Shown here: positions 10,452-47,522 of the stretch, in pieces
Layout of the letters: every line of letters begins with the position of its first letter
Numbering within the stretch: the first letter of the stretch is position 1
NCBI RefSeq assembly: GCF_002355595.1
Contig: NZ_AP017422.1
Span: 992,001 to 1,056,000, forward strand
Direction: 5' to 3'
DNA: 64,000 nucleotides
Source: Filimonas lacunae
GTDB taxonomy: Bacteria; Bacteroidota; Bacteroidia; Chitinophagales; Chitinophagaceae
Translations under genes and position numbers: made by a program
The notes under the pieces: model-generated
What the model was told of the DNA's origin: nothing
Databases searched by the model: none
The model's input: the letters and a program-made list of their open reading frames with translations, nothing else

Positions 10452-10489
10452 CTTTTAAAGATACTATGTGTACAAAGGTATTAAACCGT

Positions 10490-27749: not shown

Positions 27750-28154
27750 TTAGACCATAAAAACCCAATCGCTATCTGCATGCCAATCGTCTTCCATGTC
27801 GCTTATGCCGCAGCAGGCAGAGCTTAGGCCAATCCCCCAATCCCAATGGCAAACAGCAAAAACACTGGGAAGGTTATCACTATCTGGTATGGGCTGCATA
27901 GCTATCACCAATGTTTCTTCATACGGCTGGTCCATATACTGCAGGCGTAGCTGAAGTCCGGTTTCAGCTGGACAAAGCCGTAAGCCTGCATTTTCAGCAG
28001 CGGCAAAAATTTCTTTGTAGCTCAGTAGTATGGGGGGATCAGGTTGGGGTAGTTGTGGTATTTTTGAGCTGTTGAACGGCTGATGTTTATTACCTTCGTT
28101 ACCATACAAGAATAACTCACATGAAAGTAGTTGCCTTATTATTGGCGGTGTCAT
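27750..28154 (-). CDS. Hypothetical protein, start uncertain
   Basis: Up to 134 residues. The ATG at 28154 lies inside the divergent gene that starts at 28121; a TTG at 28109 would avoid the overlap and give about 119 residues. The conserved-looking part (ILLSYKEIFAAAENAGLRLCPAE, VFAVCHWDWGIGLSSACCGISDMEDDWHADSDWVFMV) is acidic and has several Cys and Trp residues near its end. There is no signal peptide. I do not recognise a family. Confidence 0.5.
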   Translation of the reverse strand: MTPPIIRQLLSCELFLYGNEGNKHQPFNSSKIPQLPQPDPPILLSYKEIFAAAENAGLRLCPAETGLQLRLQYMDQPYEETLVIAMQPIPDSDNLPSVFAVCHWDWGIGLSSACCGISDMEDDWHADSDWVFMV

Positions 28155-29149: not shown

Positions 29150-31537
29150 ATGAAACTAGCTATCCTACTTATCTTATACAGCCTGCTTTTGGTGCAAGGG
29201 ACAGCGCAAGTGGTAGCTGTGGAAGGGAAAATTGCTGATGAAAAGGCAACGCCTGTGCCCTTTGCTACCGTGGCTGTGTTAAGTAACAATAAAGTAATAG
29301 CTGAAAAAATTTCAGCAGAAGATGGTAGTTTTTTATTGCAGGTAACTGATAATCAGCCATACCAGATACGTATCACGCATACCGCTTACCAGCAGGTTTC
29401 TCTGCCTATACAACTCAATGGCGCTTTAAAGTTGGCTACCATTGTTTTACAAAAACAGGATAACCAGCTGGCAGGAGTAACCGTAGCTACAAAAAGAGCC
29501 TTTATTACGCGTAAAACAGATCGTTTGGTAATGGATGTCAGTAACAATGCACTCACAGCGGGAAGGTCTTCTTTAGAGTTGTTTCAGCTGGCGCCTGGCG
29601 TATTTGTGAGTAATGGAAAAATTACTATCAACGGTAATCCGGGAACAAGGGTAATGGTCAATGGAAAGATGTTACAGTTAAGTGGTGATGACCTTATCGC
29701 TTATTTAAGCAGTTTACGGGCAGATAATATCCAGTCTATTGAAATTATAGCACATCCGCCGGCAGAGTACGATGCAGAAGGTAGCGGTGGCTACATAAAC
29801 ATAGTTCTGAAAGTACAAAAGACAGCAGGTTTAAATGGCAGTGTTAACCTGGGGTATACACAAGGACGCTACCCCGGTACCAATGAAGGCATGCAACTTA
29901 ATTTTAAGCAAAATAAAGTATCGCTTTTTGCAAGCTATAATTACGATAATACCAGGGATTTTGAAGAATCGCGTTTCTTCAGGAATATTACCGACAGTAT
30001 TACTTATCTGTCCATTACCAAACGGGTAACCACTGCTACAGCGCATAGGGTACGTGCCGGTGGAGTATATGACATCGATAAAAAGCAATACGTTTCTATA
30101 GATTATACAGGCTCGTTCAGGAACAGTGGGTTTTCTTATAACTCAGATATTGTTATAGCAGCTCCGCAGCCTGAGAATAATCAAAAAGTGCTGGGTAGTT
30201 ATCCTGTAACCAGTTCCAGGAATTATCATAATCTGGGAGTTAACTACCATCTTACCCTTGATACATTGGGTACGGCCTTTATACTGCTTTCCGATTATAC
30301 CAGCAACCGATCTGCCACCGTTAGTGCAGCACATAGTTTGTTTTACGATGGCGGCAATGCCTTTATAGGTGATACCTCGTTCAGAAACCGTACACCCAGT
30401 ACCGCTACAGTTTTTACAGCTGATGCCAGGTATACTAAAGTGTGGAAACGAAATGCGGTATTGAATATAGGGGCTAAAATCACCAACACCGGTATTGAAA
30501 ACAGCGGTACTTATGAAGGGTATACCAATGACAAGTGGCTGGGTAAAAATGAACTGGACTATGTGTATAATTACCATGAAGATATTGTGGCCGGGTATGT
30601 AAGTTATAGTGGTAAGATTTTACAAACTACCCTGCAGTTGGGTATAAGGGGGGAGCATACACATACAGAAGGTAAGCTGGAAACAACCGGCCTGGTAAAT
30701 GCAAGAAACTATTTCAACCTTTTTCCTACAGTATACCTGAAACGAAATACTAATAAAAAATACAATGATTATATCAGCTTTTATTATGGTAAAAGGGTGT
30801 CCAGGCCTTCGTACAGCGATTTAAATCCCTATGAAAGTTACGCCGATAATTACACCATTGGCAGAGGTAATCCCTATCTCAATCCTTCTTTTATTCATTC
30901 GTTTGAGTTAGGATATACTTTTCGTAACAAGTACACCGTATCCGTTTCGTACGATCGTCAGAAAGATATGATTGCACAATATGCCATGCAATCGCCCATC
31001 GATTCGCTGATTACCATTTATACACGTGCAAACTTTGGGAAAAGAACAAATGCAGGAATTACTCTATACGCACCTGTTGCCATTACCAAATGGTGGAACT
31101 GGAACAACAATGTGATGCTAAGAAGGGAAACGGTAGCCATGCAGCATATTGATATCAGAAAAACCATTGTCACCATCCAGGCTAACCAGCAATTTATTTT
31201 GCCCGCTAATTTTAGCATTAGTCTCAATACCTCTTACTATTCCAACTTCATATTCGGCAATTTCCTGGTAAACCCTTTTGTGGTGGTAGATATAGGAGTG
31301 CAAAAGAAACTGATGCAAAACAAACTGGTATTGAAAGCTTCTATTAGTGATATAGGGTATGGATACAGGTTAAATGGGAAAATATACTACAGCAATAGCA
31401 ATATAGGCAGTATGGAGCAGAAAAGACAAACACGCACCTTTAACCTGGCAGCTATTTACAACTTCGATTTAGGAAAGTCTTTTAAAGCCAGGAAAATAGA
31501 AAGCAGTAATGCTGATGAACAAAACAGATTAAAATAA
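29150..31537 (+). CDS. Outer-membrane beta-barrel protein (TonB-receptor-like) of the RiPP cluster
   Basis: A 795-residue protein with a signal peptide (LAILLILYSLLLVQGTAQ). A carboxypeptidase-like beta domain (around 22-100, VEGKIADEKATPVPFATVAVL) is followed by a plug-like part (RTSSLELFQLAPGVFV-type region, ITINGNPGTRVMVNGKMLQL, IQSIEIIAHPPAEYDAEGSGGYINIVLK) and a long barrel. This is the outer-membrane beta-barrel family related to TonB receptors. It leads the operon with the direct-repeat operator upstream and could be the outer-membrane path or uptake receptor for the peptide product; that role is inference. Confidence 0.88.
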   Translation: MKLAILLILYSLLLVQGTAQVVAVEGKIADEKATPVPFATVAVLSNNKVIAEKISAEDGSFLLQVTDNQPYQIRITHTAYQQVSLPIQLNGALKLATIVLQKQDNQLAGVTVATKRAFITRKTDRLVMDVSNNALTAGRSSLELFQLAPGVFVSNGKITINGNPGTRVMVNGKMLQLSGDDLIAYLSSLRADNIQSIEIIAHPPAEYDAEGSGGYINIVLKVQKTAGLNGSVNLGYTQGRYPGTNEGMQLNFKQNKVSLFASYNYDNTRDFEESRFFRNITDSITYLSITKRVTTATAHRVRAGGVYDIDKKQYVSIDYTGSFRNSGFSYNSDIVIAAPQPENNQKVLGSYPVTSSRNYHNLGVNYHLTLDTLGTAFILLSDYTSNRSATVSAAHSLFYDGGNAFIGDTSFRNRTPSTATVFTADARYTKVWKRNAVLNIGAKITNTGIENSGTYEGYTNDKWLGKNELDYVYNYHEDIVAGYVSYSGKILQTTLQLGIRGEHTHTEGKLETTGLVNARNYFNLFPTVYLKRNTNKKYNDYISFYYGKRVSRPSYSDLNPYESYADNYTIGRGNPYLNPSFIHSFELGYTFRNKYTVSVSYDRQKDMIAQYAMQSPIDSLITIYTRANFGKRTNAGITLYAPVAITKWWNWNNNVMLRRETVAMQHIDIRKTIVTIQANQQFILPANFSISLNTSYYSNFIFGNFLVNPFVVVDIGVQKKLMQNKLVLKASISDIGYGYRLNGKIYYSNSNIGSMEQKRQTRTFNLAAIYNFDLGKSFKARKIESSNADEQNRLK

Positions 31538-31615
31538 AGATAGTCGTTGCAACAAATGGGAAACGCCGAAAACCAGTTAAAAGAGTAGGCAAAAACACTT
31601 TTAAACTTAACTACA

Positions 31616-31816
31616 ATGTCAACACAGCCAAACAATCAGAAGACCATCCAGGATCTGGAAAGTGCAAAAACAAGACTGACCAACCTGATCACTGTTTTAA
31701 AAGAAAACCCAGCTCTTTTGTCTGAAGATGAATTAAAGCAATTAAGCGGTGGTTTTTCTGAAGTAGCAGGTGAAGATGCTTCCGTAATTCTGGATATTAA
31801 CCTGATCGCTTGCTAA
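31616..31816 (+). CDS. RiPP precursor peptide, double-glycine leader, C-terminal cysteine
   Basis: A 66-residue peptide. Residues 1-46 form a charged, helical leader ending LSEDELKQLSGG, the classic site cut by C39 peptidases. The predicted core is the last 20 residues, FSEVAGEDASVILDINLIAC, with Ser at core positions 2 and 10 and a single Cys as the very last residue. A C-terminal Cys is what EpiD-type decarboxylases act on, and such an enzyme is encoded 1.2 kb downstream. Only 7 bp separate it from the SagB-type gene. The processing steps are inferred, but its identity as a precursor is well supported. Confidence 0.85.
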   Translation: MSTQPNNQKTIQDLESAKTRLTNLITVLKENPALLSEDELKQLSGGFSEVAGEDASVILDINLIAC

Positions 31817-31823
31817 CCACAGC

Positions 31824-33011
31824 ATGCTTATGAAAGAAAGGATTTATCAACCGTTGATAAATCCTTTCTTAAAACGATTGGTCGTTGCTAATCTATTACC
31901 TCTTTGTCCTAAACTATTGATTATGAAATTCAGAAGAGCCCGCTCCCTTTTCTTTACTATACAAAAAGGAGAGATATACGTCCAGAATTTCCTGCAAAAC
32001 AAAACCATTAAAGTTTCACTGGAGGAATTAAGCCTGATTACCGGCATGGATGAATGGGTGGGGGAAGAATTTCTACTCCATAATTTTATTGAAAGCGCTA
32101 CGGCAGACGACCGTTACGACCGGCTAACCAAATTGATAATATGCGGCGTTATTGTAACGGAAGACTCTAAAGAAGAGCAGGAAGATGCCGAATATAAAAA
32201 GCGATGGGAATGGGGTGAAAAAGTGGGGGCTTTTCATTTTACCCTGAAGCATACACATTTTTACCCGGTGCAGTCGGAAAAGATGAAAGCGTTGTATGAG
32301 CATATAACCTATAAAACAGAACATGATCCAAGCCCTGAATTGTATGCAGTAAACAAGAATCACTATAGCCAGGTATACGAGTATACACCGCCTGCCGACG
32401 ATGAAGGTATATTTAAAACCATCACGCGTCGAAGAACGGTAAGACTTTTTGATGAGCACCAGCCTGTTACACAGCAGCAATTGGTTAATTGTTTATACGC
32501 GGGTGTAGGTATTATTAAATTCAGGGAAGTGCCTCCTATGGGTAAAATGCCTTTGAAAACTACCCCTTCGGGTGGTGCCCGTAATCCTTTTGAGGCCTAC
32601 GTTTTATGCAGAAATGTGGACGGGTTGCCTAATGGATTATATCATTATTCTGCTACAGAGCATTCGCTGGGGTTGGTGAACAGCGGACAGGTTCATACAC
32701 CAGCCGCCATCCTGGGCGATCAATTGTGGATTAACGAAGCAGCCGTGGTGGTTTTTCTGGTAGCGAATTTTGAAAGAACGATGTGGAAATACTCGCACCC
32801 GGTAGGCTATAAAGCGGTGATGCTGGAAGCAGGCCATATAGCACAGAACATGATTCTGGCTGCCAATGAATATGGTTTTTATGGCTCCCCTACAGCTGCG
32901 GTTATCAGCACCCGGTTTGAAGAACTGATGGAGGAAAAGAATTTTACCAAAGCTTGTGTGTATGCTATTGCTATGGGGCATGCACATGCTGAAGCAGTAG
33001 AATTACAATAA
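31824..33011 (+). CDS. SagB-type FMN-dependent dehydrogenase
   Basis: A 395-residue protein (an ATG at 31830 is nearly as good). The N-terminal ~170 residues match the SagB-type leader domain (RRARSLFFTIQKGEIYVQNF, KRWEWGEKVGAFHFTLKHTHFYP). The C-terminal nitroreductase fold begins TITRRRTVRLFDEHQPVTQQQLVNCLYAGVG and includes TPSGGARNPFEAYVL, GLYHY and EAGHIAQNMILAANEYGF for FMN binding. In azole peptides SagB oxidises azolines, but no YcaO partner is present here. It may instead reduce dehydro-residues or oxidise another bond in the precursor. It is cytosolic and inside the operon. Confidence 0.88.
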   Translation: MLMKERIYQPLINPFLKRLVVANLLPLCPKLLIMKFRRARSLFFTIQKGEIYVQNFLQNKTIKVSLEELSLITGMDEWVGEEFLLHNFIESATADDRYDRLTKLIICGVIVTEDSKEEQEDAEYKKRWEWGEKVGAFHFTLKHTHFYPVQSEKMKALYEHITYKTEHDPSPELYAVNKNHYSQVYEYTPPADDEGIFKTITRRRTVRLFDEHQPVTQQQLVNCLYAGVGIIKFREVPPMGKMPLKTTPSGGARNPFEAYVLCRNVDGLPNGLYHYSATEHSLGLVNSGQVHTPAAILGDQLWINEAAVVVFLVANFERTMWKYSHPVGYKAVMLEAGHIAQNMILAANEYGFYGSPTAAVISTRFEELMEEKNFTKACVYAIAMGHAHAEAVELQ

Positions 33012-33020
33012 ATATATACT

Positions 33021-33560
33021 ATGAGAAATATTGCGTTGGGTATTACAGGTGCTGTTTCTGCTGCAGCAATGCCTTCTTTTATTATGCATCTTCGCAAAGA
33101 GCTGAATTGTAATATAACGGTAATGGTATCTAAAAATGCCACCCAGTTTGTTACACCTTATGCCTTGAGAATATATTCAGGTAATGAAGTGTTTACCGAT
33201 ACTTATGCTATTAGCGAGCATGCACTGGTGCCGCACGTTAAATTATCGCAACAGGTAGATCTGATGGCTATTATGCCCGCTTCCAGTAACATTATTGCCA
33301 AGGCGGCCAATGGAATCAGCGATGATATTATTTCTACTGCTATTACCGCTTCTTCTTCTCCTGTGCTTTTTGTGCCTTCTATGAACGAGCATATGTGGCG
33401 TAAGCCCAGCGTACAAGCCAATGTGGATAGGCTAAAACAATATGGCTATCATGTGCTGGAGCCCGAGCGTGGGTTAAAAGTAGAAGGTCTGAATGAAGTG
33501 TATGGCGCAATGGCGTCTTTAAAAAGCGTGCTGTTATTGTTGAAGCAGTTTTTACCATAA
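33021..33560 (+). CDS. EpiD/LanD-type flavoprotein decarboxylase
   Basis: A 179-residue protein of the homo-oligomeric flavin-containing Cys decarboxylase family. GITGAVSAAA binds the FMN phosphate. PHVKLS carries the catalytic His at residue 72. PASSN (86-90) is the PASANT-like motif, and PSMNEHMW (119-126) matches the PxMNxxMW substrate-recognition motif exactly. The size fits EpiD (181 aa) and not the larger Dfp/CoaBC. It should oxidatively decarboxylate a peptide C-terminal cysteine to an enethiol, and the nearby precursor ends in Cys. Confidence 0.93.
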   Translation: MRNIALGITGAVSAAAMPSFIMHLRKELNCNITVMVSKNATQFVTPYALRIYSGNEVFTDTYAISEHALVPHVKLSQQVDLMAIMPASSNIIAKAANGISDDIISTAITASSSPVLFVPSMNEHMWRKPSVQANVDRLKQYGYHVLEPERGLKVEGLNEVYGAMASLKSVLLLLKQFLP

Positions 33561-33596
33561 CCGGCATTGCCATTCTTTCAATATCAATTCAATAAT

Positions 33597-34919
33597 ATGA
33601 AACTCAGTCAATTTAATAATGCCATTGCATTAAAAGATAAGTTCCTTCTGTATAATGCATTGAGCAACCGCTACCTGGTTGTAGAACCATTGTTGAACGA
33701 ATTGGTAGAGTCGGCCAGGCTCAATGGCAATATTGACGAGTTGTTAGATTATCATCCCGGGTTTTACCAGTCGTTACATAAGAATGGTTTTATAGTAGAA
33801 AATGAAACCGATGAAATTGAGGTGGTAAAGCAAATGCGTCAGCAGGTGGATATAGAAGATGACACACAATACCAGTTGGTGATAAACCCAACTATGAATT
33901 GCAATTTTAAATGCTGGTATTGCTACGAATCACATGAGAAAGGTTCTAAAATGGATACACCTACCATTGAGAACGTAAAAAAACATATTACACATGTAGT
34001 AGAAAGTATGCCCCGGCTTAAAAATTTTCATATATCCTGGTTTGGTGGCGAGCCGCTGCTTTATTTTGAACAGGTGATTGTACCGGTAATGGAGTATGTA
34101 AAAACCTTGTTTGCTCATCGCACTGTTTCTTTTAGCACGGGCTTTACTACCAATGGTTTTTTAATTAACCCATCCATGTTCGATGCCTTCCAGTCGTACC
34201 ATATTACCAATTTCCAGATTACACTGGATGGCAATAAAAAACTGCACGATGCAGTACGTTTTGTCAGCGCCCGTCGTGGTTCATACGATGATATTATAGA
34301 AAACGTATTGTCGCTTTGCCGAAACCAGCTAAGCGTGAGCATACGTATTAATTATACAGCTACTAATTTAAAAGAACTGGAAGAAATTGTGCATGACCTG
34401 CTTCCGCTGGAAGATGATTTTCGCCCTTACCTGCGTATTTCTTTTCATAAAGTATGGCAGGAAAAAGATGTAACCCTCATTGGCAGGGTAAGGGAGTTGC
34501 ACCGCTTTTTCAGAAGCCAGGGTTTTAATACCACATTTGGAGATGTGGATTTGCCGGATACGGTGCGTAATTCCTGCTATGCCGATAAAAAGAATCATGC
34601 TACTATTAACTATAATGGCGAAGTGTTTAAATGCACTGCCCGTAACTTTTCGTCCGGGTCAAAAGAAGGGGAATTGAACACAGATGGCTCTATCACCTGG
34701 AATGAAAAGTATTATAACAGGCTGGATGTGAAATTCAAAAATAAGCCCTGTTTATCTTGTTCTATCCTGCCTATATGCAATGGTGGTTGTTCGCAGGAAG
34801 CCATTGAACACCTGCATGAAGATTATTGCATGTACGATTTTGATGAGCAGCGTAAAAAAGGAGTCATCTTAAACAAGTTTTTGAACATGGCTAATACCCG
34901 TGTCACCGCTAACAGCTAA
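33597..34919 (+). CDS. Radical SAM/SPASM peptide maturase
   Basis: 440 residues from the ATG at 33597; an upstream TTG gives a non-conserved extension. The N-terminal ~85 residues look like a peptide-binding domain. The radical SAM motif is C102-x3-C106-x2-C109 (CNFKCWYC), followed by WFGGEPLL. The C-terminal SPASM domain has many cysteines (FKCTARNF, CLSCSILPICNGGC, DYCMY) for auxiliary iron-sulfur clusters. Such enzymes make thioether, C-C or other radical crosslinks in peptides. The reaction here is unknown. It overlaps no neighbour and continues the operon. Confidence 0.93.
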   Translation: MKLSQFNNAIALKDKFLLYNALSNRYLVVEPLLNELVESARLNGNIDELLDYHPGFYQSLHKNGFIVENETDEIEVVKQMRQQVDIEDDTQYQLVINPTMNCNFKCWYCYESHEKGSKMDTPTIENVKKHITHVVESMPRLKNFHISWFGGEPLLYFEQVIVPVMEYVKTLFAHRTVSFSTGFTTNGFLINPSMFDAFQSYHITNFQITLDGNKKLHDAVRFVSARRGSYDDIIENVLSLCRNQLSVSIRINYTATNLKELEEIVHDLLPLEDDFRPYLRISFHKVWQEKDVTLIGRVRELHRFFRSQGFNTTFGDVDLPDTVRNSCYADKKNHATINYNGEVFKCTARNFSSGSKEGELNTDGSITWNEKYYNRLDVKFKNKPCLSCSILPICNGGCSQEAIEHLHEDYCMYDFDEQRKKGVILNKFLNMANTRVTANS

Positions 34920-34938
34920 TCTCAAAAACGGCACTATT

Positions 34939-35829
34939 ATGAACACACTACAGGAAATAGGAAGAATGCCGGGTAAAGAAGGCCCCTATACCATTTACCT
35001 GAATTATATATTGGATACTGTATTTACACCACAGCAAAAACAGGATTTTAACAGGTTGTCACAAGCATATGATAACTGTTTTGCCCTGGCTAAAGAGAAT
35101 AAGGAAACAGAAATGGATAGGGCCTACGCCTATTGCTGTCAGCTAACAGAAAGTGTAGATGCCGGCATTATGCCGTGGATTGAAGCGCTTTGTGCACCAC
35201 GGTTGTCTTATTGCCAGTATAAGAAAAAAGATTTTGTGGGTGCGCTTGATTTCACCTACGAGATCATAGCAGCTAATCAATACCTGCAACAACAGGGATA
35301 CCAATACCTGTTCTTTTCCGAAATACAGCAGTGGCATAATGTAAGCAGGATTTATTTTTCGCAGGGCGATACCAAAGAAGCGATTGCCGTTTGTGTGCGG
35401 TGCGTGGATGACATGGCTAAGCAGTCGGGTAAATGGGAGTCGTTTGTGTTGCTGAACGGAATAAGTGAGGGGACGTTAATTGCAGAATCGCAATATGGCA
35501 TGCTGATACAGGTGTTAACTGAAACCTTTATCAGGATTCTAAAACTATACAAAAAAGAGACAGTGTTGTTGCGCTACTGGTTGCAGCAGTTTATGAATCC
35601 GCTGGATAGCATTGAATTTTCACGGTTATCGGAGGATATACGCTACCGGCACCTGGATGCATTGATGGCTCTGCTGCGTGAAATGATGCTGGAAAATGGA
35701 GAAGTAAATGCGGCTAACCTGTTGTTTACAGATAAGGAGAATGTAAGCAAAGAGTTGCTGGAAGTAATGCATGCCTATTTGCGGGCATATATATCCGGCA
35801 ATGCTGCTGCATTGGCAAAAGCAGGATAA
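34939..35829 (+). CDS. Helical protein of unknown function in the RiPP operon
   Basis: 296 residues from the ATG at 34939; the frame extends 13 codons into the radical SAM gene. The protein is all-helical and Tyr/Gln/Leu-rich (CAPRLSYCQYKKKDFVGALDFTYEIIAANQYLQQQGYQYLF, WHNVSRIYFSQGDTKEAIAVCVRCVDDMAKQ), suggesting TPR-like repeats. There is no signal peptide or catalytic motif. Position in the operon between the maturase and two small GG peptides suggests a scaffold, chaperone or immunity role; none of these is proven. Confidence 0.75.
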   Translation: MNTLQEIGRMPGKEGPYTIYLNYILDTVFTPQQKQDFNRLSQAYDNCFALAKENKETEMDRAYAYCCQLTESVDAGIMPWIEALCAPRLSYCQYKKKDFVGALDFTYEIIAANQYLQQQGYQYLFFSEIQQWHNVSRIYFSQGDTKEAIAVCVRCVDDMAKQSGKWESFVLLNGISEGTLIAESQYGMLIQVLTETFIRILKLYKKETVLLRYWLQQFMNPLDSIEFSRLSEDIRYRHLDALMALLREMMLENGEVNAANLLFTDKENVSKELLEVMHAYLRAYISGNAAALAKAG

Positions 35830-35857
35830 CCTATATGTAATCACAAATTGTATGATC

Positions 35858-36061
35858 ATGAAAAAGTTAAAGGATTTTTTTACCAGGCAGTCTGCCCTCA
35901 AACTCGAAAATTGCACTTCTTTCCAAATAGAAAAAGAAGAATCTGACAAGCTGTATGGTGGGTTTAAAGAGTATAAGCCACCCATATATGAGCAGGAAGG
36001 GCAGGGCAACACCACCTTTAAAACAACCGAGTTATTCATTCATATCACTGATACTAAATAA
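35858..36061 (+). CDS. Second candidate RiPP precursor, GG motif
   Basis: 67 residues from the ATG at 35858 (an ATG at 35852 adds two). A basic and acidic leader ends IEKEESDKLYGG, followed by F as in the first precursor (SGGF). The remaining 32 residues have no Ser or Cys but six Thr, in NTTFKTTELFIHITDTK at the end. Size, charge and GGF junction match a precursor for C39 export, and Thr are LanB substrates. It lies 22-28 bp after the helical-protein gene and 7 bp before the third small peptide. Confidence 0.65.
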   Translation: MKKLKDFFTRQSALKLENCTSFQIEKEESDKLYGGFKEYKPPIYEQEGQGNTTFKTTELFIHITDTK

Positions 36062-36068
36062 CACTGTT

Positions 36069-36275
36069 ATGTCACAAAAGAAAAATAACAAGAAAGACAA
36101 ACCTAAAGACAAGAAAAACCGCATAGTGGATGTGGAAAAGCTAAAAGCCGATGGCATTATTAAGGGCGAGCCTAAAGATGACATCGAACGAATTGATGGC
36201 GATCATATTCACGGTGGCAGAATGGATGATGAAACCACTGTAGATACGCATTGGCCTACTACCCAGGGAAAATAG
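36069..36275 (+). CDS. Third small GG-containing peptide
   Basis: 68 residues starting at the ATG at 36069, chosen over upstream in-frame codons that overlap the preceding peptide gene. A very Lys-rich N-terminus (KKNNKKDKPKDKKNR) is followed by GEPKDDIERIDGDHIHGG and a tail RMDDETTVDTHWPTTQGK with five Thr and no Cys. The GG could be a C39 cleavage site as in the other two peptides, but the leader is unlike theirs. It may be a precursor or an accessory peptide. Confidence 0.5.
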   Translation: MSQKKNNKKDKPKDKKNRIVDVEKLKADGIIKGEPKDDIERIDGDHIHGGRMDDETTVDTHWPTTQGK

Positions 36276-36322
36276 CTGACATCAGCTTTTATCAGCACTA
36301 ACGTCGAATAAAAATCAAGTCA

Positions 36323-38623
36323 ATGGGCTTATTTAGCAAAAAATATAAATTCTATAAACAGTTAGACTACATGGATTGTGGGCCTACCTGTTTACGCATG
36401 ATTGCTGCGTATTATGGGGAAGAGTACTCGTTGGATTACCTGCGGGCTAACTCCTATATTACCAAAAACGGCGTTAGTTTGCTGGGGCTGAGTGAAGCTG
36501 CTGAAAAGATTGGACTAAAAACGCTTTCTGCCAAATTAACGTACGATCAACTAACCGGGCAAATACCGTTGCCCTGTGTGCTGCACTGGAACCAGGAACA
36601 TTATGTAGTATTATATGCAGTAGAAAAAAAGAGCCTGCTGCGTCCTGTAGAACGCCTGGTCATTGCCGATCCGGGTCATACGCTGGTGCGGGTAGAAAGG
36701 GATGTGTTTGAAAAATGCTGGATTAGCTCGGCAGACAAAAAAGGAGTGGCGCTGTTAATGGATCCAACAGTTGATTTTTACCGGGATGAAGATGAGGTGA
36801 AAAAGGAGAGAACGGGTTTTGGTTTTTTGATGGGATACTTACGCCCTTATAAAAGATATTTCATTCAGCTGGTATTAGGTATGCTACTAGGCAGCCTTAT
36901 CAGTATGTGTTTTCCTTTTCTAACGCAAAGCCTGGTAGATTTTGGCGTAAGTCGTAAAAAGGTCAGCTTTATTTACCTGATCTTATTGTCGCAATTATTG
37001 CTTTTTTTGGGTGGTATAGCAGTAGATCTTATACGCAACTGGATTCTGTTGCATATAAGCACGCGCATTAGTATTAGTATCATTTCCAATTTTCTTATTA
37101 AACTCATGAAGCTGCCCATCAGCTTCTTTGAATCAAAGAATGTGGGCGATATCACGCAGCGTATCAACGATCATAAAAGGATAGAAGCATTTCTTACCGG
37201 CTCTACTTTAAATACTTTATTCTCTATCATTAACCTTTTTGTATTCTCCTTTGTGCTATCGCTGTACAATACCCGTTTATTACTGGTATTTGTTATAGGT
37301 AGTGCCTTGTCAATAGGATGGATACTGATTTTTCTCGAAAAGCGAAAGCATATTGATTATAACCGTTTTCAGCGATCCCGCGAAAACCAGAACAGCCTGT
37401 TTGAAATTATAACAGGCATGCAGGAAATAAAGCTGTATAACAGCCAGAAGGCAAGACGATGGGAGTGGGAACGTATACAGTCTAAACTGTTTAAGGTGAA
37501 TATTAAAAGCCTGGCTTTAGAGCAATATCAGGGCATAGGTGCTTCTTTTTTTACACAGCTAAAAAATATCATCATCAGCTATCTGGCCGCTAAACTGGTA
37601 ATAGAGCAACAGATAAGCCTTGGGGTGATGTTGAGTATTTCTTATATAGTAGGACAAATGAATAGCCCGCTTGATCAGATTATTCTGTTTATTAAAAGTA
37701 TACAGGATGCCAAAATAAGCCTTGACCGGTTAAATGAAATACATAGCAAACCGGAAGAAGAAAATAGCGAAGACTTAATTGGTTATAATGAAAACAGCTG
37801 GCCGCGTGAGCCTGAAAACGGTTCAGATTCTCTATACTTAAGTCATGAACTGTTTACAAAAAGCATTCGGAAAAACAGTGGGGAAGGCATTGTTATTCAA
37901 AACCTGTCGTTCAAATATGGATCGCCTAAAAGTCCGTTGGTGTTAAAGAACATTAATATGCATATTCCGAAAGGGAAAATTACGGCCATAGTGGGTGCCA
38001 GTGGCAGTGGCAAAACCACATTGCTGAAATTATTGCTGAAATTTTATCCACCTGTGGAGGGCCAGATACTGGTGGATGAAGTAAACCTGCAAAATATATC
38101 AGCGCAACTGTGGCGGAACAATGTAGGAACCGTGATGCAGGATGGCTTTGTGTTTTCCGATTCTATTGCCCGTAATATAGCGGTAGATGGTGAACGGATA
38201 CGGGAAGATAAATTATATGATGCAGTGCGCATAGCCAATTTGCATGAGTTTATATCTAAACTGCCTTTAGGGTTTACCACGCGTATAGGTAACTCGGGTT
38301 CAGGATTAAGCGGCGGTCAAAAGCAACGTTTGTTTATTGCGCGTGCGGTATACAAAGACCCGAAATATCTGTTTTTTGATGAAGCTACCAGTGCCCTGGA
38401 TGCCAATAATGAAAAAGTGATTATGGAAAACCTGCAACAGTTTTACAAGGGTAGAACGGTGGTGGTGATTGCGCACCGGCTAAGTACTGTAAAAAATGCC
38501 GACCAGATTATTGTAATGAAAGATGGAGAAATTGTAGAGGAAGGCCATCATGAAACCCTTACCAAATCAAGAGGATATTATTTTGAACTGGTAAAGAATC
38601 AGTTAGAATTAGATGTCGCTTAA
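36323..38623 (+). CDS. Peptidase-containing ABC exporter (C39/LanT type)
   Basis: A 766-residue protein. The N-terminal C39 peptidase has C19 (DYMDCGPTC), H93 (QEHYVVLY) and D116 (IADPGH), a complete Cys-His-Asp set. Six membrane helices lie around residues 175-460. The ATPase has Walker A (VGASGSGKTT, about 556), LSGGQKQR and FFDEATSALD. It cuts leaders after GG and exports the core peptide through the inner membrane. It follows three GG peptides and precedes a membrane-fusion-like gene by 11 bp. All catalytic residues are present. Confidence 0.96.
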   Translation: MGLFSKKYKFYKQLDYMDCGPTCLRMIAAYYGEEYSLDYLRANSYITKNGVSLLGLSEAAEKIGLKTLSAKLTYDQLTGQIPLPCVLHWNQEHYVVLYAVEKKSLLRPVERLVIADPGHTLVRVERDVFEKCWISSADKKGVALLMDPTVDFYRDEDEVKKERTGFGFLMGYLRPYKRYFIQLVLGMLLGSLISMCFPFLTQSLVDFGVSRKKVSFIYLILLSQLLLFLGGIAVDLIRNWILLHISTRISISIISNFLIKLMKLPISFFESKNVGDITQRINDHKRIEAFLTGSTLNTLFSIINLFVFSFVLSLYNTRLLLVFVIGSALSIGWILIFLEKRKHIDYNRFQRSRENQNSLFEIITGMQEIKLYNSQKARRWEWERIQSKLFKVNIKSLALEQYQGIGASFFTQLKNIIISYLAAKLVIEQQISLGVMLSISYIVGQMNSPLDQIILFIKSIQDAKISLDRLNEIHSKPEEENSEDLIGYNENSWPREPENGSDSLYLSHELFTKSIRKNSGEGIVIQNLSFKYGSPKSPLVLKNINMHIPKGKITAIVGASGSGKTTLLKLLLKFYPPVEGQILVDEVNLQNISAQLWRNNVGTVMQDGFVFSDSIARNIAVDGERIREDKLYDAVRIANLHEFISKLPLGFTTRIGNSGSGLSGGQKQRLFIARAVYKDPKYLFFDEATSALDANNEKVIMENLQQFYKGRTVVVIAHRLSTVKNADQIIVMKDGEIVEEGHHETLTKSRGYYFELVKNQLELDVA

Positions 38624-38634
38624 ATATTGCCAAT

Positions 38635-39372
38635 ATGCCAGATACAAGTCAAATAGTAGAAATCAGGAGCAATGAAATGGATGAAATTGTGGGCAACATC
38701 CCTCCCTGGGTAATTCGCTGGGGCATTACTGTGTTGTTTACAGTAGCGGTGTTAGGGCTGGTTATTTCTAATATCATCCGTTATCCCGATACATTACGTG
38801 CCACAGTGTTGATGCAGGCTGAAAACCAGCCAGGTAAGGTAACTATCCGCAGAACAGATGAAAATGCCAATTTTAAATTTCATTTCCTGGTGAGGAATGG
38901 CGACGAGGTGTTACCGGGCGATACGCTGTTAACACGGTTCGATCCTAAAGAGAAGAAGAGTTATTATACTATTACACCTATGTCGGGGAAAATATATGTT
39001 TCGAAAGGGATTGATGAAAAAAATACGCTTGACCAGATTATTTGGGTGGTGCCTAAATCGTCCAAAGCAGAAGTTAAAATCAGGTATAGCAATAAAGGAG
39101 CAGGCAATGTAAAAGTGGGGCAGCTGGTAAAAATTGAATTGTCTGATTTTCCTGTTAATGAATACGGTTACCTGGAAGGTACTATTGCTTCTATTATGCC
39201 TGTACAGATAGAAGGGGATCACCAGGCATATGTGCAATTGAAAGACCAGAAGATTGTTACTTCTGATAGAAAGGAAATTCCTATTTTACCTGTAATGGAA
39301 GGAAGTGCAGAGATTTTATTGAGCGACAGAAGTATTTTTCAGCGCATTTTCGGAAGCATGTTTAGCAGGTGA
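38635..39372 (+). CDS. Short HlyD-like membrane-fusion protein
   Basis: A 245-residue protein with one N-terminal membrane helix (WGITVLFTVAVLGLVISNII). A lipoyl/barrel-sandwich half (LVRNGDEVLPGDTLLTRFD ... PMSGKIYVSKGI) and a beta-barrel half (NVKVGQLVKIELSDFPVNEYGYLEGTIASIMP) follow. The long coiled-coil hairpin of standard HlyD adaptors is missing, so it is about 150 residues shorter than usual. It probably links the ABC exporter to an outer-membrane component. No TolC gene is in the cluster; the outer-membrane partner may be elsewhere. Confidence 0.85.
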   Translation: MPDTSQIVEIRSNEMDEIVGNIPPWVIRWGITVLFTVAVLGLVISNIIRYPDTLRATVLMQAENQPGKVTIRRTDENANFKFHFLVRNGDEVLPGDTLLTRFDPKEKKSYYTITPMSGKIYVSKGIDEKNTLDQIIWVVPKSSKAEVKIRYSNKGAGNVKVGQLVKIELSDFPVNEYGYLEGTIASIMPVQIEGDHQAYVQLKDQKIVTSDRKEIPILPVMEGSAEILLSDRSIFQRIFGSMFSR

Positions 39373-39414
39373 TAATTTATTTGCCTATATTGCTTATACC
39401 CAGCTAACAAACTT

Positions 39415-42400
39415 ATGCCGCATCAAACCTTTAAACACTATAGTAAGGTTGTTACCAGAACACCCCTTTATTCTTATTCCCGTTTACACGACCAAAACTG
39501 TACTACGCTGTCATTGGAAACAGTAGTGCAGCAATTGCTACGCGATCCTGTTTTTATAGAGGGTTTGTATTGGAGTTCTCCCCAGTTATGGGAAACGGTA
39601 TTGCAATATAATGCCGGTCATTTGGCTGTTGCAAAACAGGATAAATTATTGCATACATTAAAGAAGTATGCTATTCGCGCCAGTACGCGCGCCACCCCTT
39701 TTGGCATTTATGCTGGTTGTGCCCTGGAAGCAGAAGGTAAACCGGTTGAAAATGAGGATATGCCGCGCAGAAGTGTGCGTATAGATATGGGATTGTTACA
39801 GCAAATAGTAAAGAAGATTGAATCTCACCCTGTATTGTGGCGCCATTTGCATTACCAGGTAAATAACTCGTGTTATTGTGTAGCGGATCAGTTGAGGTTT
39901 ACAGAAGTAATAACAGATGAAGAAGGGAAGCAGCAATACCAGGTGAGTGCTATTGAGCAAACAGCATTATTGAAAAAAATGGTGGCCTGGTTGCAGCAAA
40001 ACGGCAAAGCTACTATTACACAGCTTTATACACTTTCGCCGGAAGATGTCAGTTATCAGGCATTTGAAGCTTTCGTGCAGGAATTGATAGAGGCGCAATT
40101 GCTGGTAAGTGAGTTGCAGCCTGGTGTTACTATGGAGCACGAAACTTTGCCTGTACAAACTGTTTTATCTTCATTCGTTCACCAGCAAATTACAGGTGCA
40201 GCAGGCTTTCTTACATTATTGCATAAGCTGGATAATACGTTGACACAATTAAATGCATTGCCATTGGGTACTTTGCCTGTGGCGGCGTTGTGTGAAGTAG
40301 AAGCTTTGCTGGAAGAATTGGATATTATACCGGAGCAGCGTCATATTTTTCATGCCGATTTGTATTTCCCTCCACCAGTTTCTTTTCCCTGGCAGCATGT
40401 TTCGCTGCAGGAGCTTACAAAGGCGATGGCTTTTTTTAGTAAGCTGTCTATCACTACCTCACCATTGGAAGCCTTGCTCGACCGTTTTAAAAAACGCTTT
40501 GCTGAAAGATATGAAACGATGGAAATGCCTTTGTTAGAAGTGTTAGATCCCGAGTTTGGTATAGGATTTCCGGTGGCGGAGGGTATGGGTAATATGGCGC
40601 ATAATGCTTTGTTGGAAAAATGGCAGTTGCCGGGAAGTAAAGAAATGGGCAAAAGAGCTGCGGAAGGAAACGCCTGGCTGCAGGATAAAATGGAGTTGCT
40701 GAACAGGGAAAGCCTGTTTAAAGGTATTCACCTGGAAGATAACGACATGCAGGAGGTGGATGACAGGTTGCATAAGCTGTCTAATCATTTTGCCATTATG
40801 GGAGCATATTTGCCTTCGGGTAAAATAATACTGCATAATGCAGGTGGGGCGCATGCGAATATTTTACTGGGCAGATTTGCCTACCTGGATACAGCGATAG
40901 ATGAATTTTGCAAACAACTTGCTATGGAAGAGCAGGATGCGAATGAGCAGGTGCTGTTTGCTGAGCTTATTCATATGCCACCCGGACGGATCAGTAATAT
41001 AGCAAGGAGGGAACGCTTTTCAGGATATGAAATACCTTTTCTGGCTGCCAGTGCAGCAGAAGCCGGACAACAGCTTATGGCAGAGGATATCATGGTTTCT
41101 GTACAGCAGGAGGAGATAGTGTTACGCTCGCGAAAACATAACAAACGCATTATACCGCGCTTGTCTAATGCCCATAACTACATGGGCAGTTCTATTACCG
41201 CTTATAAGTTTCTGGCGGCGATACAATACCAGGGTACATCGGGTTTTGAAATCAACTGGGGAGCAATGGGGCAATACAAACGTTTTTTACCTCGCATTGC
41301 TTACAGGCAGTTTATCCTGCATCGTGCTTCCTGGTTGTTAAGGGAATCGGATATACGGGCTATTCAAGCAGCGGATAGCCCCATGCAGGCACTCCGGATT
41401 TTTTGTAAGGAGTGGCAGGTGCCGCAACGGGTTTGCTTTTGCGAGGGTGATCATGAGTTGTTTATTGATACCACCAATGATGAATATCTGCAGGTATTGC
41501 TGAAAGAAATGAAAGGGTGTTCTGTGGTAAAGTTGGTGGAATGGCTGTATGATACACCGATTGATGAAGGTAGGGGCGCACATGCATATGCACAACAATT
41601 TATATTGCCGCTCGCCAGACTAAATCCTTTACCTGTACCGGCTTTACTGTCCAAAGCGCTGAACGGGGTACAGCGTTATTTTGAACCGGGCAGCGAATGG
41701 TTGTATGTGAAAGTATTTTGCGGAGCAAAGGTGACTGATCAAATATTAAAGCATCTGAAACCTGTATTGGATAACCTGCTATCGGCTGGTATTATTGAAA
41801 AATTCTTTTTTATCCGCTATGCCGATCCGCATTGTCATATCCGCTTACGGCTGCAGTTGTCTGATACCAGACAGTACCAGGCTGTAGTGCAGCAGCTTTA
41901 TCCTGTATGGCACCCTTACCTGGAAAGCAGGCTTATCTGGAAAGTGCAACAGGATACTTACCAGCGCGAAATTGAAAGATATGGTGAGAAGGATATTCTT
42001 GCGGCAGAAGCTATTTTCTTTTACGACAGTCAGGCGGTGCTTGCCTGTTTGCAGGAGGATGATTTTGAAGAAGACGAGCAGGTAAGGTTATTTACAGCAG
42101 TTTGTAATATGGAGCATTGGTTAAATGCATATCACTTTTCGTTACAGGATAAAATAACGTACTGCGAAGAGATGTCGGAAGCCTTTTCCGGTGAGTTTGG
42201 TCGTGAGGTAAAGCGAAAGCTGAATAAGCAATATCCGGAGTGGAAAACGGGTTTGGCACAATTTCAGGTGAAGGCAGCCTGGGAGGAGGCTTTTGCCGCA
42301 AGAACTGCCCGGTTACAAAATATGGAATTATCTTTAGAGAATATATCCAGTTACATACATATGAGTATGAACCGGTGGTTTACTGCCGAACAGCGTTTGA

Positions 42401-42471
42401 TGGAATATATCACTTATCACTTTTGTGTGAAGTTTTTCAACCAAATGGTTCACTTGAAAAATGAAGCGTAA
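39415..42471 (+). CDS. Full-length LanB-type lantibiotic dehydratase
   Basis: A 1,018-residue protein. The N-terminal glutamylation domain carries the hallmark IRASTRATPFGIYAG near residues 90-104. The C-terminal SpaB_C elimination domain (from about residue 758) has FFIRYADPHCHIRLRL. LanB uses Glu-tRNA to glutamylate Ser/Thr and then eliminates glutamate to give dehydroalanine or dehydrobutyrine. Both halves are fused in one chain, unlike the split enzymes of thiopeptides. No LanC follows. Its stop overlaps the kinase gene by 11 bp. Confidence 0.95.
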   Translation: MPHQTFKHYSKVVTRTPLYSYSRLHDQNCTTLSLETVVQQLLRDPVFIEGLYWSSPQLWETVLQYNAGHLAVAKQDKLLHTLKKYAIRASTRATPFGIYAGCALEAEGKPVENEDMPRRSVRIDMGLLQQIVKKIESHPVLWRHLHYQVNNSCYCVADQLRFTEVITDEEGKQQYQVSAIEQTALLKKMVAWLQQNGKATITQLYTLSPEDVSYQAFEAFVQELIEAQLLVSELQPGVTMEHETLPVQTVLSSFVHQQITGAAGFLTLLHKLDNTLTQLNALPLGTLPVAALCEVEALLEELDIIPEQRHIFHADLYFPPPVSFPWQHVSLQELTKAMAFFSKLSITTSPLEALLDRFKKRFAERYETMEMPLLEVLDPEFGIGFPVAEGMGNMAHNALLEKWQLPGSKEMGKRAAEGNAWLQDKMELLNRESLFKGIHLEDNDMQEVDDRLHKLSNHFAIMGAYLPSGKIILHNAGGAHANILLGRFAYLDTAIDEFCKQLAMEEQDANEQVLFAELIHMPPGRISNIARRERFSGYEIPFLAASAAEAGQQLMAEDIMVSVQQEEIVLRSRKHNKRIIPRLSNAHNYMGSSITAYKFLAAIQYQGTSGFEINWGAMGQYKRFLPRIAYRQFILHRASWLLRESDIRAIQAADSPMQALRIFCKEWQVPQRVCFCEGDHELFIDTTNDEYLQVLLKEMKGCSVVKLVEWLYDTPIDEGRGAHAYAQQFILPLARLNPLPVPALLSKALNGVQRYFEPGSEWLYVKVFCGAKVTDQILKHLKPVLDNLLSAGIIEKFFFIRYADPHCHIRLRLQLSDTRQYQAVVQQLYPVWHPYLESRLIWKVQQDTYQREIERYGEKDILAAEAIFFYDSQAVLACLQEDDFEEDEQVRLFTAVCNMEHWLNAYHFSLQDKITYCEEMSEAFSGEFGREVKRKLNKQYPEWKTGLAQFQVKAAWEEAFAARTARLQNMELSLENISSYIHMSMNRWFTAEQRLMEYITYHFCVKFFNQMVHLKNEA

Positions 42472-43564
42472 TAACGAATTTTCTATTTATCCTAATCAGG
42501 CAGTACGGCCTTTATGGCATATGCTCTATTGGCTCGTGATGTTTTTTTTTATCCTGTTTGTCACATCCTATTCTTTAAAAACGAATGTGCTGAACATGGT
42601 AAATGTGATTTTTTCGGCTTGCGTATTGGCAAACGCAATACTGCTGCATTACTTCATCAGCTGTTTTATTTTTCAGCACGTGCACAAAAAAAAATGGTTT
42701 TTGCTGCCTGTAGACATGGTAATGATATATGTGCTGGCCTTGTGTGTCCTTAGCTCTTCTTTGGTTTTATTACATTATTTGTACCCGCAAAATACTTTTG
42801 TGCTCAGGCTTTACCAGCAATTTGCCATGCAAAGCCTCGCAAGGCCCTTTCACAGTGAATTGATTATCTGGATCTGTTCATTTATTATCTGGTTTAATCC
42901 GCTGGGTGTTATTATAAAAATTGCCAAAGATTTTCATGAAAGCTCGGTAGAAAAGCTGGCGATAGCCCAGGAAAAGAAGTCAATGGAAATCAGTTTTTTG
43001 CGTGCCCAGATACAACCTCATTTTTTGTTTAATTCTTTAAATAGTATTTATGGGTTGGTCATTGATAATGAAGAGGCCAGTAAGGTGGTGATTCAATTAT
43101 CTAACCTGTTGCGTTTTTCTTTATATGATAGTGCTAAGGAACATATTACACTCCAGGAGGAAATTGCGTTTCTAAGCAATTATCTTCTGCTGGAAAAAAT
43201 GAGGTATAAAGAAAGCCGGGTGCAGATTGAGTATGATTTTGAGGAAATAGAAAGCAAAGAAAAAATTATAAAACCCCTTATTTTAATTAGCTTTATTGAA
43301 AATGCCTTTAAACACGGCATTAACGCCAGCATTAACAATGCCTGGATAAGATTGGCACTCAAGGAGAAAGATGGGATATTGACTTTTCATGCTGCTAATA
43401 ACAAACCAGTTGCTGCCCTGGGTAAAAAAAATACGGAATCAGGTGGAGGGGTTGGTTTGAAAAATGTGCGCAGGAGACTGGAGCTGGAATATCAGATGCG
43501 CTACAGTCTTGATATCAAGGAAACAGACGATGTATATGAGGTGGCGTTAGTGTTAAAGCTTTAA
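42461..43564 (+). CDS. LytS/YehU-type sensor histidine kinase
   Basis: A 367-residue protein with four N-terminal membrane helices (roughly residues 17-157) and a short linker. The His_kinase domain has SFLRAQIQPHFLFNSLNSIYG (phospho-His near 187) and an ATP-binding part with SFIENAFKHGI and GVGLKNVRRRLEL. It autophosphorylates and passes phosphate to the adjacent LytTR regulator. Overlap with the lanB stop and 17 bp to the regulator gene indicate one transcript. The signal may be the peptide itself or envelope stress; unknown. Confidence 0.93.
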   Translation: MKRNNEFSIYPNQAVRPLWHMLYWLVMFFFILFVTSYSLKTNVLNMVNVIFSACVLANAILLHYFISCFIFQHVHKKKWFLLPVDMVMIYVLALCVLSSSLVLLHYLYPQNTFVLRLYQQFAMQSLARPFHSELIIWICSFIIWFNPLGVIIKIAKDFHESSVEKLAIAQEKKSMEISFLRAQIQPHFLFNSLNSIYGLVIDNEEASKVVIQLSNLLRFSLYDSAKEHITLQEEIAFLSNYLLLEKMRYKESRVQIEYDFEEIESKEKIIKPLILISFIENAFKHGINASINNAWIRLALKEKDGILTFHAANNKPVAALGKKNTESGGGVGLKNVRRRLELEYQMRYSLDIKETDDVYEVALVLKL

Positions 43565-43581
43565 CCTATACCTGTTAACAC

Positions 43582-44313
43582 ATGAAAGTACTGATTGTAG
43601 ATGACGAACCCATAGCCCAGCAAATACTGGAAAAACTATCTGAAAAAGTAAATTACCTAACTGTTGAGGGCGTGTACGATAACGCCATTACTGCATTGGA
43701 AGCCATACAGGAATCTCAGCCCGATCTCATCTTTCTTGATATACAAATGCCGGAAATGACAGGGTTGGAAATGCTCCGCATTTTTCGTCAAAAAGATATA
43801 CTGGTAATACTTACAACTGCTTATCACGAATATGCATTAGAAAGCTATGAGCTGGACGTGGTGGATTATTTACTGAAACCCATTGCTTTTGAACGCTTTT
43901 TAAAAGCGGTGACAAAGGCTAATGAGTTGTATAAGCTGAAGCGTGCGTCGCACCCCGCGTCTGTAGCCACCTTTACCGGTAATGATGCCAAAACTTATGT
44001 ATGGGCCAAAGAAGGACGTAAAAGGGTGCAGATTTGCCTGGAAGATATTATACTGGTGCAGGCATTAAAAGATTATATGGAGCTGCAAATGCCCGCCGGA
44101 AAGGTAATTTTGAACGTTACCATGAACAAGATCGAAGAATTGCTGCCACCTCCTTTCTTTCTTCGCGTTAACCGTTCCTGTATTGTACGTAAAAGCGCTA
44201 TTAAGCATATTCAGGATATGCATATTGAAATTATACTGCCTTCAATAAAGAGAATTCCTATTGGTCCCACTTACTGGGAAGATGTAAAAAAACACATTGT
44301 AGAACTGTTTTAA
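43582..44313 (+). CDS. LytTR-family response regulator
   Basis: A 243-residue protein. The receiver domain has VDDEP near the N-terminus, LIFLDIQMPEMTG (phospho-Asp near residue 53), a Thr in ILTTAYHEYAL and the Lys of LLKPIAF. The C-terminal LytTR domain includes YVWAKEGRKRVQICLEDIILVQALKDYMEL and FFLRVNRSCIVRKSAIKHI. LytTR domains bind short direct repeats about two helical turns apart. Such repeats flank this cluster at 29021-29052 and 44321-44352, so it is the likely regulator of the whole locus. Confidence 0.95.
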   Translation: MKVLIVDDEPIAQQILEKLSEKVNYLTVEGVYDNAITALEAIQESQPDLIFLDIQMPEMTGLEMLRIFRQKDILVILTTAYHEYALESYELDVVDYLLKPIAFERFLKAVTKANELYKLKRASHPASVATFTGNDAKTYVWAKEGRKRVQICLEDIILVQALKDYMELQMPAGKVILNVTMNKIEELLPPPFFLRVNRSCIVRKSAIKHIQDMHIEIILPSIKRIPIGPTYWEDVKKHIVELF

Positions 44314-44320
44314 TCTCCTG

Positions 44321-44352
44321 TCTCCATCGAAGAACAGCTATGCTTGGTCGAA
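44321..44352 (+). promoter_or_regulatory. Second paired direct repeat, likely LytTR operator (small peptide)
   Basis: TCTCCATCGAA (44321-44331) and GCTTGGTCGAA (44342-44352) share TCGAA and the CT at positions 2-3, spaced 21 bp as at 29021-29052; CTCCATCGAAGA is identical in both places. The site begins 8 bp after the LytTR regulator gene and lies 73 bp upstream of the small peptide gene, suggesting that this peptide has its own LytTR-controlled promoter. Confidence 0.65.
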
Positions 44353-44424
44353 TTAATTATGATTTTGACAGGCAAAAAGCAAACTTAGGTGAAAGTATAT
44401 TACCTCAACGCTAAAACTAAGTCT

Positions 44425-44577
44425 ATGGCAACCAAAACACTCCAGATTAAAAAACGTATCGTATGTAAATGTAAAGTACTGGCACTGCCAGTGACACACA
44501 ATGTCATTACTACCAACCCTTCCAAAGAAAATTCCCGTTCTTCCATTACCGTACCTACTTATACGATTGGACATTGA
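44425..44577 (+). CDS. Candidate fourth precursor or signal peptide, 50 aa
   Basis: A 50-residue peptide from the ATG at 44425 (an in-frame alternative at 44389 lies in the likely promoter). The basic N-terminus KTLQIKKRIVCKCK loosely resembles the L-x-L-K-K-x-T-I leader motif of Bacteroidota class I lanthipeptide precursors. The second half is rich in Ser, Thr and Asn (SKENSRSSITVPTYTIGH). It has no GG site. The two Cys are in the N-terminal part. Evidence that it is real comes from its position after the regulator and from the shared direct repeats upstream. The role as LanB substrate is inference. Confidence 0.5.
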   Translation: MATKTLQIKKRIVCKCKVLALPVTHNVITTNPSKENSRSSITVPTYTIGH

Positions 44578-47486: not shown

Positions 47487-47522
47487 GTGAATACTGTTAA
47501 TGGTTGACGGTACGGTATAACA

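Follow-up and report, generated by a model that had tools for sequence, protein, structure and literature searches.

The described systems closest to the locus reported here are families of ribosomally synthesized and post-translationally modified peptides (RiPPs). Many class I lanthipeptide clusters of Bacteroidetes combine GG leaders with a C39 exporter, and their LanA leaders carry the motif LxLxKx5L (PMC7268733). The Avi(Me)Cys (aminovinyl-(methyl)cysteine) RiPPs, among them the linaridins, class Va lanthipeptides and thioamitides, have a PF02441 flavoprotein and a precursor whose last residue is Cys. PMC11162475 gives this pair as its mining rule, with a T-x4-C motif, in a search that covered only Actinobacteria and Firmicutes, and a BAGEL4 survey of Bacteroidales reports two LanD areas among 1,340 (PMC10352776). 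Class Va clusters are described as also lacking LanC (PMC12291118), and among the radical S-adenosylmethionine (SAM) thioether peptides, such as the ranthipeptides, an Asn-Cys radical thioether is reported in NxxcA (PMC8326336). Here, we describe a locus of Filimonas lacunae that shares features with each of these. It lies in a window of 64,000 nucleotides (NZ_AP017422.1, positions 992,001 to 1,056,000, on a single contig of 7.81 Mb) and comprises 14 genes on one strand, at window positions 29150–44577.

The gene set given in the original prediction (SagB, LanD, radical SAM, C39, LanB, LytS/LytTR and a GG precursor) was confirmed by profile matches and by synteny with Filimonas zeae. The fourteen co-directional genes announced there were also found, the last being that of the small peptide A4 (44425–44577). 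All of them have F. zeae orthologs in the same order, with amino-acid identities from 47% (A4) to 90% (C39), and the gene set is real and conserved in two species. The A4 ortholog likewise sits after LytTR (tblastn 2e-5; 47% over 45 residues). In a third Filimonas genome (G015), SagB, LanB and the radical SAM enzyme were unmatched, and the LanD search returned only a match of CoaBC length. We consider it moderately probable that this is a composite RiPP locus, in which two modules stand beside one LytS/LytTR pair. The more general finding of the analysis is the LanB cassette without zinc-type LanC, to which the second module belongs. The genes, with window positions and strand, are as follows.

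29150..31537, +, outer-membrane beta-barrel protein with a carboxypeptidase-regulatory-like domain (module 1); PF14905, 6.5e-91; 64% identity with F. zeae
31616..31816, +, precursor A1, GG leader, core FSEVAGEDASVILDINLIAC; the only core Cys is C-terminal; 83% identity with F. zeae
31824..33011 (start maybe ~31923), +, SagB-type flavin mononucleotide (FMN) dehydrogenase with an N-terminal domain; TIGR03605, 96.3 bits against a cut-off of 78.4; 68% in F. zeae
33021..33560, +, LanD-type HFCD flavoprotein, stand-alone; PF02441
33597..34919, +, radical SAM/SPASM maturase; PF04055
34900..35829 (likely start 34942), +, weakly TPR-like 309-aa protein; no Pfam match at 0.001
35858..36061, +, small peptide A2, LYGG then FKEYKPPIYEQ...FKTT; F. 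zeae ortholog, FKEYKPPIYEQ invariant
36069..36275, +, small peptide A3, C-terminal DETTVDTHWPTT; F. zeae ortholog, TTVDTHWPTT invariant
36323..38623, +, C39 peptidase-ABC exporter; PF03412, PF00664 and PF00005; 90% in F. zeae
38635..39372, +, short HlyD-like membrane-fusion protein; TIGR01843, 4.4e-15, below cut-off; 75% in F. zeae
39415..42471, +, full-length LanB dehydratase (module 2); PF04738 and PF14028
42461..43564, +, LytS-type histidine kinase; PF06580
43582..44313, +, LytTR response regulator; PF00072 and PF04397
44425..44577, +, small peptide A4, leader KTLQIKKRIV, Ser/Thr-rich tail SSITVPTYTIGH; F. zeae ortholog; equivalent place in locus L054

The LanB of the second module appears intact. 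Nine MadB/NisB residues are quoted as essential (PMC12241602), and eight of them align with R88, R92, T94, D124, D315, R487, R812 and R855; the ninth, H982, falls outside the MadB alignment and is the invariant His of an HM stretch in those LanBs that reach that far. The enzyme looks competent for glutamylation and elimination. Its closest relative outside Filimonas (L054, 39.7% identity) is encoded in the order LanB, LytS, LytTR and Thr-rich peptide, followed by a 119-aa protein matching a LytTR regulator, and in the 20 kb of that locus radical SAM, SagB, LanD and C39 were unmatched. The leader of A4 carries LxIxK, with a Cys replacing the expected last Leu in both Filimonas species, and that of L054 fits LxIxKx5L. 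Cys is absent from the A4 tail, as it is from A2 and A3 after the GG. A4 is likely the substrate of LanB. With the class I lanthipeptides of Bacteroidota the locus thus shares a full-length LanB with the catalytic residues listed, GG leaders and the C39 exporter; it differs in that no LanC match is near and that none of A1, A2, A3 and A4 has a core with Ser/Thr and an internal Cys. Because both are absent, no lanthionine is expected here.

LanB loci were searched in 298 order-level genomes (18 matched) and 294 family-level genomes (32 matched), two samples that overlap. Every matched locus was fetched, which gave 51 including those of the window and F. zeae (L075 and L083 end at a contig edge beside LanB), a total that is a lower bound, with at most two candidates scored in most genomes. 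A zinc-type LanC was called by a profile from 26 LanC proteins of the same loci together with the CHG motif; L038 and L060, which have a LanC-like protein without CHG, were scored as lacking it. The premise that LanB normally works with LanC held for 30 of the 51 loci, in which a zinc-type LanC is present in the fetched stretch; it is lacking in the other 21, so that such loci are not rare in these samples. LytS lies within 2 kb of LanB in 14 of the 21 LanC-less loci vs 3 of the 30 with LanC. Small open reading frames (ORFs) were termed Thr-rich with at least five Thr in the last 30 residues, and Cys was counted in the same tail. All 14 LanC-less loci with LytS near have such an ORF, each tail with at most one Cys, compared with 10/30 of the LanC loci (6/30 with at most one Cys), 6/7 of the other LanC-less loci (five with at most one Cys) and 3/13 control stretches without LanB. 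At six Thr, these counts become 11/14, 4/30, 1/7 and 1/13, respectively. By eye, P-T-x-[ST] is common to many of the peptides from LanC-less loci. The window itself contains the whole cassette, namely LanB, LytS within 2 kb and a Thr-rich ORF in the absence of zinc-type LanC. Since the Thr-rich peptides hold little Cys for ring closure, LanC may be absent because the precursors offer little to cyclise.

In a tree of 46 LanBs (a quick search with no bootstrap, from which L043, L059, L075, L076 and L083 were excluded as too short), L054 groups with both Filimonas LanBs with an SH-aLRT of 100. A second group holds ten LanC-less LanBs, and L036, L038, L060 and the pair L058/L073 are found elsewhere. 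The LanC-less LanBs thus do not make up a single lineage, and they are not peculiar to Filimonas. Zinc-type LanC is absent, and LanB is accompanied by LytS/LytTR and small Thr-rich ORFs, in L036, L038, L052–L055, L074, L075, L077 and L080–L082, and in several LanC-less cassettes the peptide gene is divergent from lytS while LanB is convergent with lytTR.

The absence of LanC and YcaO that the original prediction had reported for the cluster holds genome-wide for YcaO and for zinc-type LanC. YcaO gave no match across the F. lacunae genome. The LanC-like family PF05147 gave four, three of them over the cut-off; each lies at a distance of over 1 Mb from the window, and the CHG zinc motif was not found in the ORFs at these matches. 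The genome therefore does not seem to offer, even in trans, a YcaO or a zinc-type LanC that can be recognised. A LanC acting from elsewhere in the genome was considered and is unlikely, given LanC-like ORFs without CHG; a zinc-free or unrelated cyclase may stand in LanC's place. Nor was a LanC or YcaO gene found just outside the gene set, as far as this was tested: in F. zeae the LanC-like matches are on contigs C2 and C3 and the cluster is on C1, a comparison of location in which YcaO and the LanC zinc motifs were left unchecked. One of the F. zeae LanC-like matches has a 411-aa frame (G114:C3).

The first module resembles a different kind of cluster. In the radical SAM enzyme, CxxxCxxC and seven further Cys, the spacing of which we take to be SPASM-type, are invariant in both Filimonas species, and several Cys-peptide maturases are among its top-scoring NCBIfam models, none of which reaches its cut-off. 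Searches with this protein matched 4/298 order-level genomes at 1e-45 and 12/294 family-level genomes at 1e-60, its own genome being counted in both. Besides the two Filimonas loci there are 11 others, and in each a small GG-type ORF with Cys lies no more than 4 kb from the radical SAM gene. A C39 match is present in 10 of the 11 and an outer-membrane protein match also in 10 (missing in L088); LanB, LanD and SagB were unmatched in the fetched stretches of all 11. In 9/11, the outer-membrane gene and the radical SAM gene have a precursor between them, and A1 is placed likewise, with SagB and LanD intervening. Because the other loci have neither of these two genes yet share the layout, SagB and LanD look like additions to a radical SAM cluster that was itself joined to a LanB cassette.

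With the radical SAM thioether peptides, the locus has in common the SPASM-type enzyme and relatives beside Cys- and Asn-containing precursors. The CxxxCxxC motif, the SPASM Cys and a Cys-bearing core are all present, the thioether itself being predicted, and the difference is that the single Cys is C-terminal here and presumably a LanD substrate too. Among 30 precursors of the radical SAM loci, chosen for two or more Cys following the GG, Asn stands four residues before 57 of the 138 Cys, a count reached in 0/500 shuffles; position −1 was also enriched. A homolog of the 309-aa protein, itself with a weak TPR match (E 0.006), is encoded next to six precursors in L084. L084–L087 have five or six related GG precursors in a row, many of them with motifs of the CTNxxxC type, ahead of a SPASM-type radical SAM gene and a C39 exporter.

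The precursor A1 ends in INLIAC (DINLIAC) in both species, its Cys being the only one in the core. In both species, the nine residues before this Cys are free of Ser and Thr, and Ser2 alone is conserved. The best PDB relatives of the LanD-type protein are 7cfu and 6jls, followed by CoaBC, MrsD and EpiD, and it keeps His72 and the Asn122 of PSMN, residues that we assume to have their familiar roles. The LanD assignment is made from context and residues; the best NCBIfam match is CoaBC, below cut-off, with CypD likewise below. A separate CoaBC-length match occurs elsewhere in the F. lacunae genome. Together, A1 and the PF02441 flavoprotein form the pair that the published AviCys rule describes, and the Ser/Thr expected a few residues before the Cys (T-x4-C) is absent in both species. 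Shorter Ser/Thr-to-Cys spacings than T-x4-C also occur in AviCys. Compared with the Avi(Me)Cys RiPPs, the locus stands out by its Bacteroidota host, a full LanB, the addition of radical SAM and SagB, and the lack of Ser/Thr near the Cys. A1 is likely the substrate of both LanD and the radical SAM enzyme. Used as a marker at E 1e-31, LanD matched 3/395 phylum-level genomes, which were F. lacunae and two with CoaBC-length frames. LanD, radical SAM and SagB grouped round a precursor whose one Cys is C-terminal are still an unusual combination. In L049 (genome G036, 9909–10463), a LanD-like HFCD protein, 45% identical to that of the window, lies among what by eye are polyketide synthase-like genes; radical SAM, SagB and LanB were unmatched in its surroundings.

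SagB was tried as a marker of related clusters and rejected, because among the five contig loci obtained, the cluster was present only in F. zeae. The other four had no further biosynthetic match, the sole extra being a weak LytTR match (E 0.004) in L028, and L027 is only 4.4 kb long. Weak SagB matches in four family genomes came without the cluster genes, save an ABC match in one. A SagB match was found in 86 plasmid records, four of which were opened: two have it beside nonribosomal peptide synthetase (NRPS) genes and two in other settings. The expectation that SagB works with YcaO fits the linear azol(in)e peptides, which require both, and here there is SagB only. It does not extend to the NRPS-linked SagB of rhizobial plasmids, away from azole clusters, where YcaO is likewise unannotated within 10 kb (the annotation is incomplete); at the present locus, LanD and radical SAM accompany SagB. 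In L028 (9632–11065), a SagB-type dehydrogenase adjoins a small ORF with repeated RIVFSTGSASAAQ units.

The rates of divergence from F. zeae, for which pS is near saturation in most genes, appear to fit LanB–A4 and A1–LanD–radical SAM as pairs. The slow-changing genes are A1 (83% identity, pN/pS 0.18), LanD (84%, 0.15) and radical SAM (78%, 0.22). LanB has 51% identity and a pN/pS of 0.40, and A4, on 45 codons only, has 0.48; A2 and A3 have 0.31 each.

From the gene set, its conservation in two species, the occurrence of each module alone elsewhere, the catalytic residues and the C-terminal Cys of A1, we infer the reactions, the enzyme–substrate pairings, the order of the steps and a regulatory role for LytS/LytTR. 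LanB would glutamylate and then eliminate the Ser/Thr of the Cys-free A4 tail, and perhaps of A3 too, to give a linear dehydropeptide; with no Cys in A4, there would be nothing for LanC to close. A1 would be cleaved after the GG and exported via the C39 transporter. Its C-terminal Cys would be oxidatively decarboxylated to an enethiol by LanD, and the radical SAM enzyme would build a thioether on that sulfur, its partner perhaps being the Asn that stands four residues before the Cys (NLIAC). SagB would dehydrogenate A1 or make some other redox change on it. The exporter, originally described as complete, has its C39 ABC protein and a short HlyD-like adaptor; no TolC-type gene was recognised in the cluster, so that it may be incomplete. 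LanB and the radical SAM enzyme probably have different substrates, because the LanB cassette occurs alone in L054 and the radical SAM–exporter–precursor set alone elsewhere. If the relatives of the radical SAM enzyme act on Cys peptides, as their context suggests, the one A1 Cys would serve both this enzyme and LanD. A bolder joint proposal, which we put forward as distinctly speculative and improbable as a whole, is that radical SAM joins the A1 Cys sulfur to Asn16 and LanD removes the carboxylate, forming an aminovinyl thioether ring by radical chemistry, and that the LanB–LytS–LytTR–peptide cassettes perform Agr-like signalling with lanthionine-free dehydropeptides.

Several results weigh against the assignment of two modules. 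The 309-aa protein (pN/pS 0.43) has diverged as fast as LanB and A4, and LytS and LytTR less than LanB. The Thr-rich criterion was chosen post hoc, and the 14 loci that it describes are related, the window and F. zeae being two of them; A4 of F. zeae, with 4 Thr, is under the limit, and its locus was counted via A3. In several LanC-less loci, a peptide carries one Cys at the C-terminus or close to it, and a lanthionine may form in those relatives. When leaders were scored against ten LanB-locus and ten radical SAM-locus leaders, A1 (mean z 1.99 and 1.28, respectively) and A2 (1.81 and 1.20) were slightly closer to the former, and A4 was low against both (0.82 and −0.36); the leaders thus assign neither A1 nor A2 to one of the two enzymes. 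In a control with one precursor per locus (10 loci, L091 being omitted as almost identical to L090), Asn at −4 fell to 10/42 Cys, with 29/1000 shuffles, −3 equalled −4 and −1 nearly did so, which weakened Asn at −4 as a strong radical SAM signature; in L029, the nearest radical SAM relative, Asn precedes the last Cys by three residues (−3). Finally, the 14 genes form one co-directional run, which makes joint action possible. Two of these points, the F. zeae A4 falling short on Thr and the low scores of the A4 leader, slightly lower the confidence in the two-module assignment.

The original prediction had one peptide on which four chemistries act together. Its gene set is conserved, and each module occurs alone elsewhere, which points to separate substrates; a single product is less likely than two modules. 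In its strict form, with all four enzymes acting on A1 and with A2, A3 and A4 as accessory peptides, it would account for the co-directional run kept in two species, and we find it quite improbable, as LanB has diverged far more than A1 and the other three peptides have orthologs as well. An AviCys-type product is unlikely, if a little less so: LanB would dehydrate Ser2 (or Ser5/Ser10) of A1, LanD would make the Cys20 enethiol, the two would be joined without LanC as in class Va, and radical SAM and SagB would decorate the product. LanD, the C-terminal Cys and an A1 leader no less similar to LanB-locus leaders than to radical SAM ones speak for it, and in rosin A1 an enethiol is reported to add non-enzymatically to a distant dehydroalanine (Dha), e.g., Cys25 to Dha15 (PMC12291118). 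It is opposed by the missing T-x4-C, with Ser2 alone conserved, and by the Thr-rich partner that LanB has in L054. The 309-aa protein was considered as a kinase-fold AviCys cyclase and set aside, its sequence yielding only weak TPR matches.

In Agr-type quorum systems, a peptide gene, a maturase, a kinase and a LytTR regulator are found together. Here, the maturase would be LanB; AgrB and AgrD were not recognised, with no Pfam match of either type among the cluster proteins scanned. That LytS would sense the dehydrated peptide, with module 1 as the putative regulated output, is compatible with the two-module assignment, and we hold it as a tentative, somewhat doubtful possibility. It agrees with the proximity of LytS in LanC-less as opposed to LanC loci, with the several cassettes without a C39 match and with a peptide gene often divergent from lytS. 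LytS/LytTR pairs are, however, common in Bacteroidota, and a test of LanC absence with LytS on independent pairs had four pairs and no power. It is very improbable that the PF02441 protein belongs with CoaC-like enzymes and has no part in peptide chemistry, despite CoaBC being its best, sub-threshold NCBIfam match, since the genome has its separate CoaBC-length match and the protein stands alone, adjoining a precursor with a conserved C-terminal Cys.

Among the open-access papers listed by literature searches, a scope outside which most subscription journals fall, no title or displayed abstract described this gene set, LanC-less LanB–LytTR cassettes or the shared Cys. The survey points to a recurrent LanB locus type of Chitinophagaceae without zinc-type LanC, for which the precursors, rather than enzyme loss, are offered as the explanation. 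The locus is also a case, within Bacteroidota, of a LanD-type enzyme accompanied by a precursor whose C-terminal Cys is conserved. The idea of a shared Cys is bolder than the cassette finding; if LanD and radical SAM do share it, this would be a dehydration-free route to AviCys-like rings, testable with three genes.

The genes flanking the cluster (window 28121–28855 and 46266–48074) had no Pfam match at 0.001. At about 2.31 Mb of the same genome (L014, 4622–10181), two proteins of unassigned family are grouped with a LytS/LytTR pair and with a LanC-like protein that lacks CHG, possibly a second peptide locus. In L042 and L046, a zinc-type LanC and a second LanC-like protein, the latter lacking CHG, accompany several GG precursors whose tails are of the SCCxKSC type.

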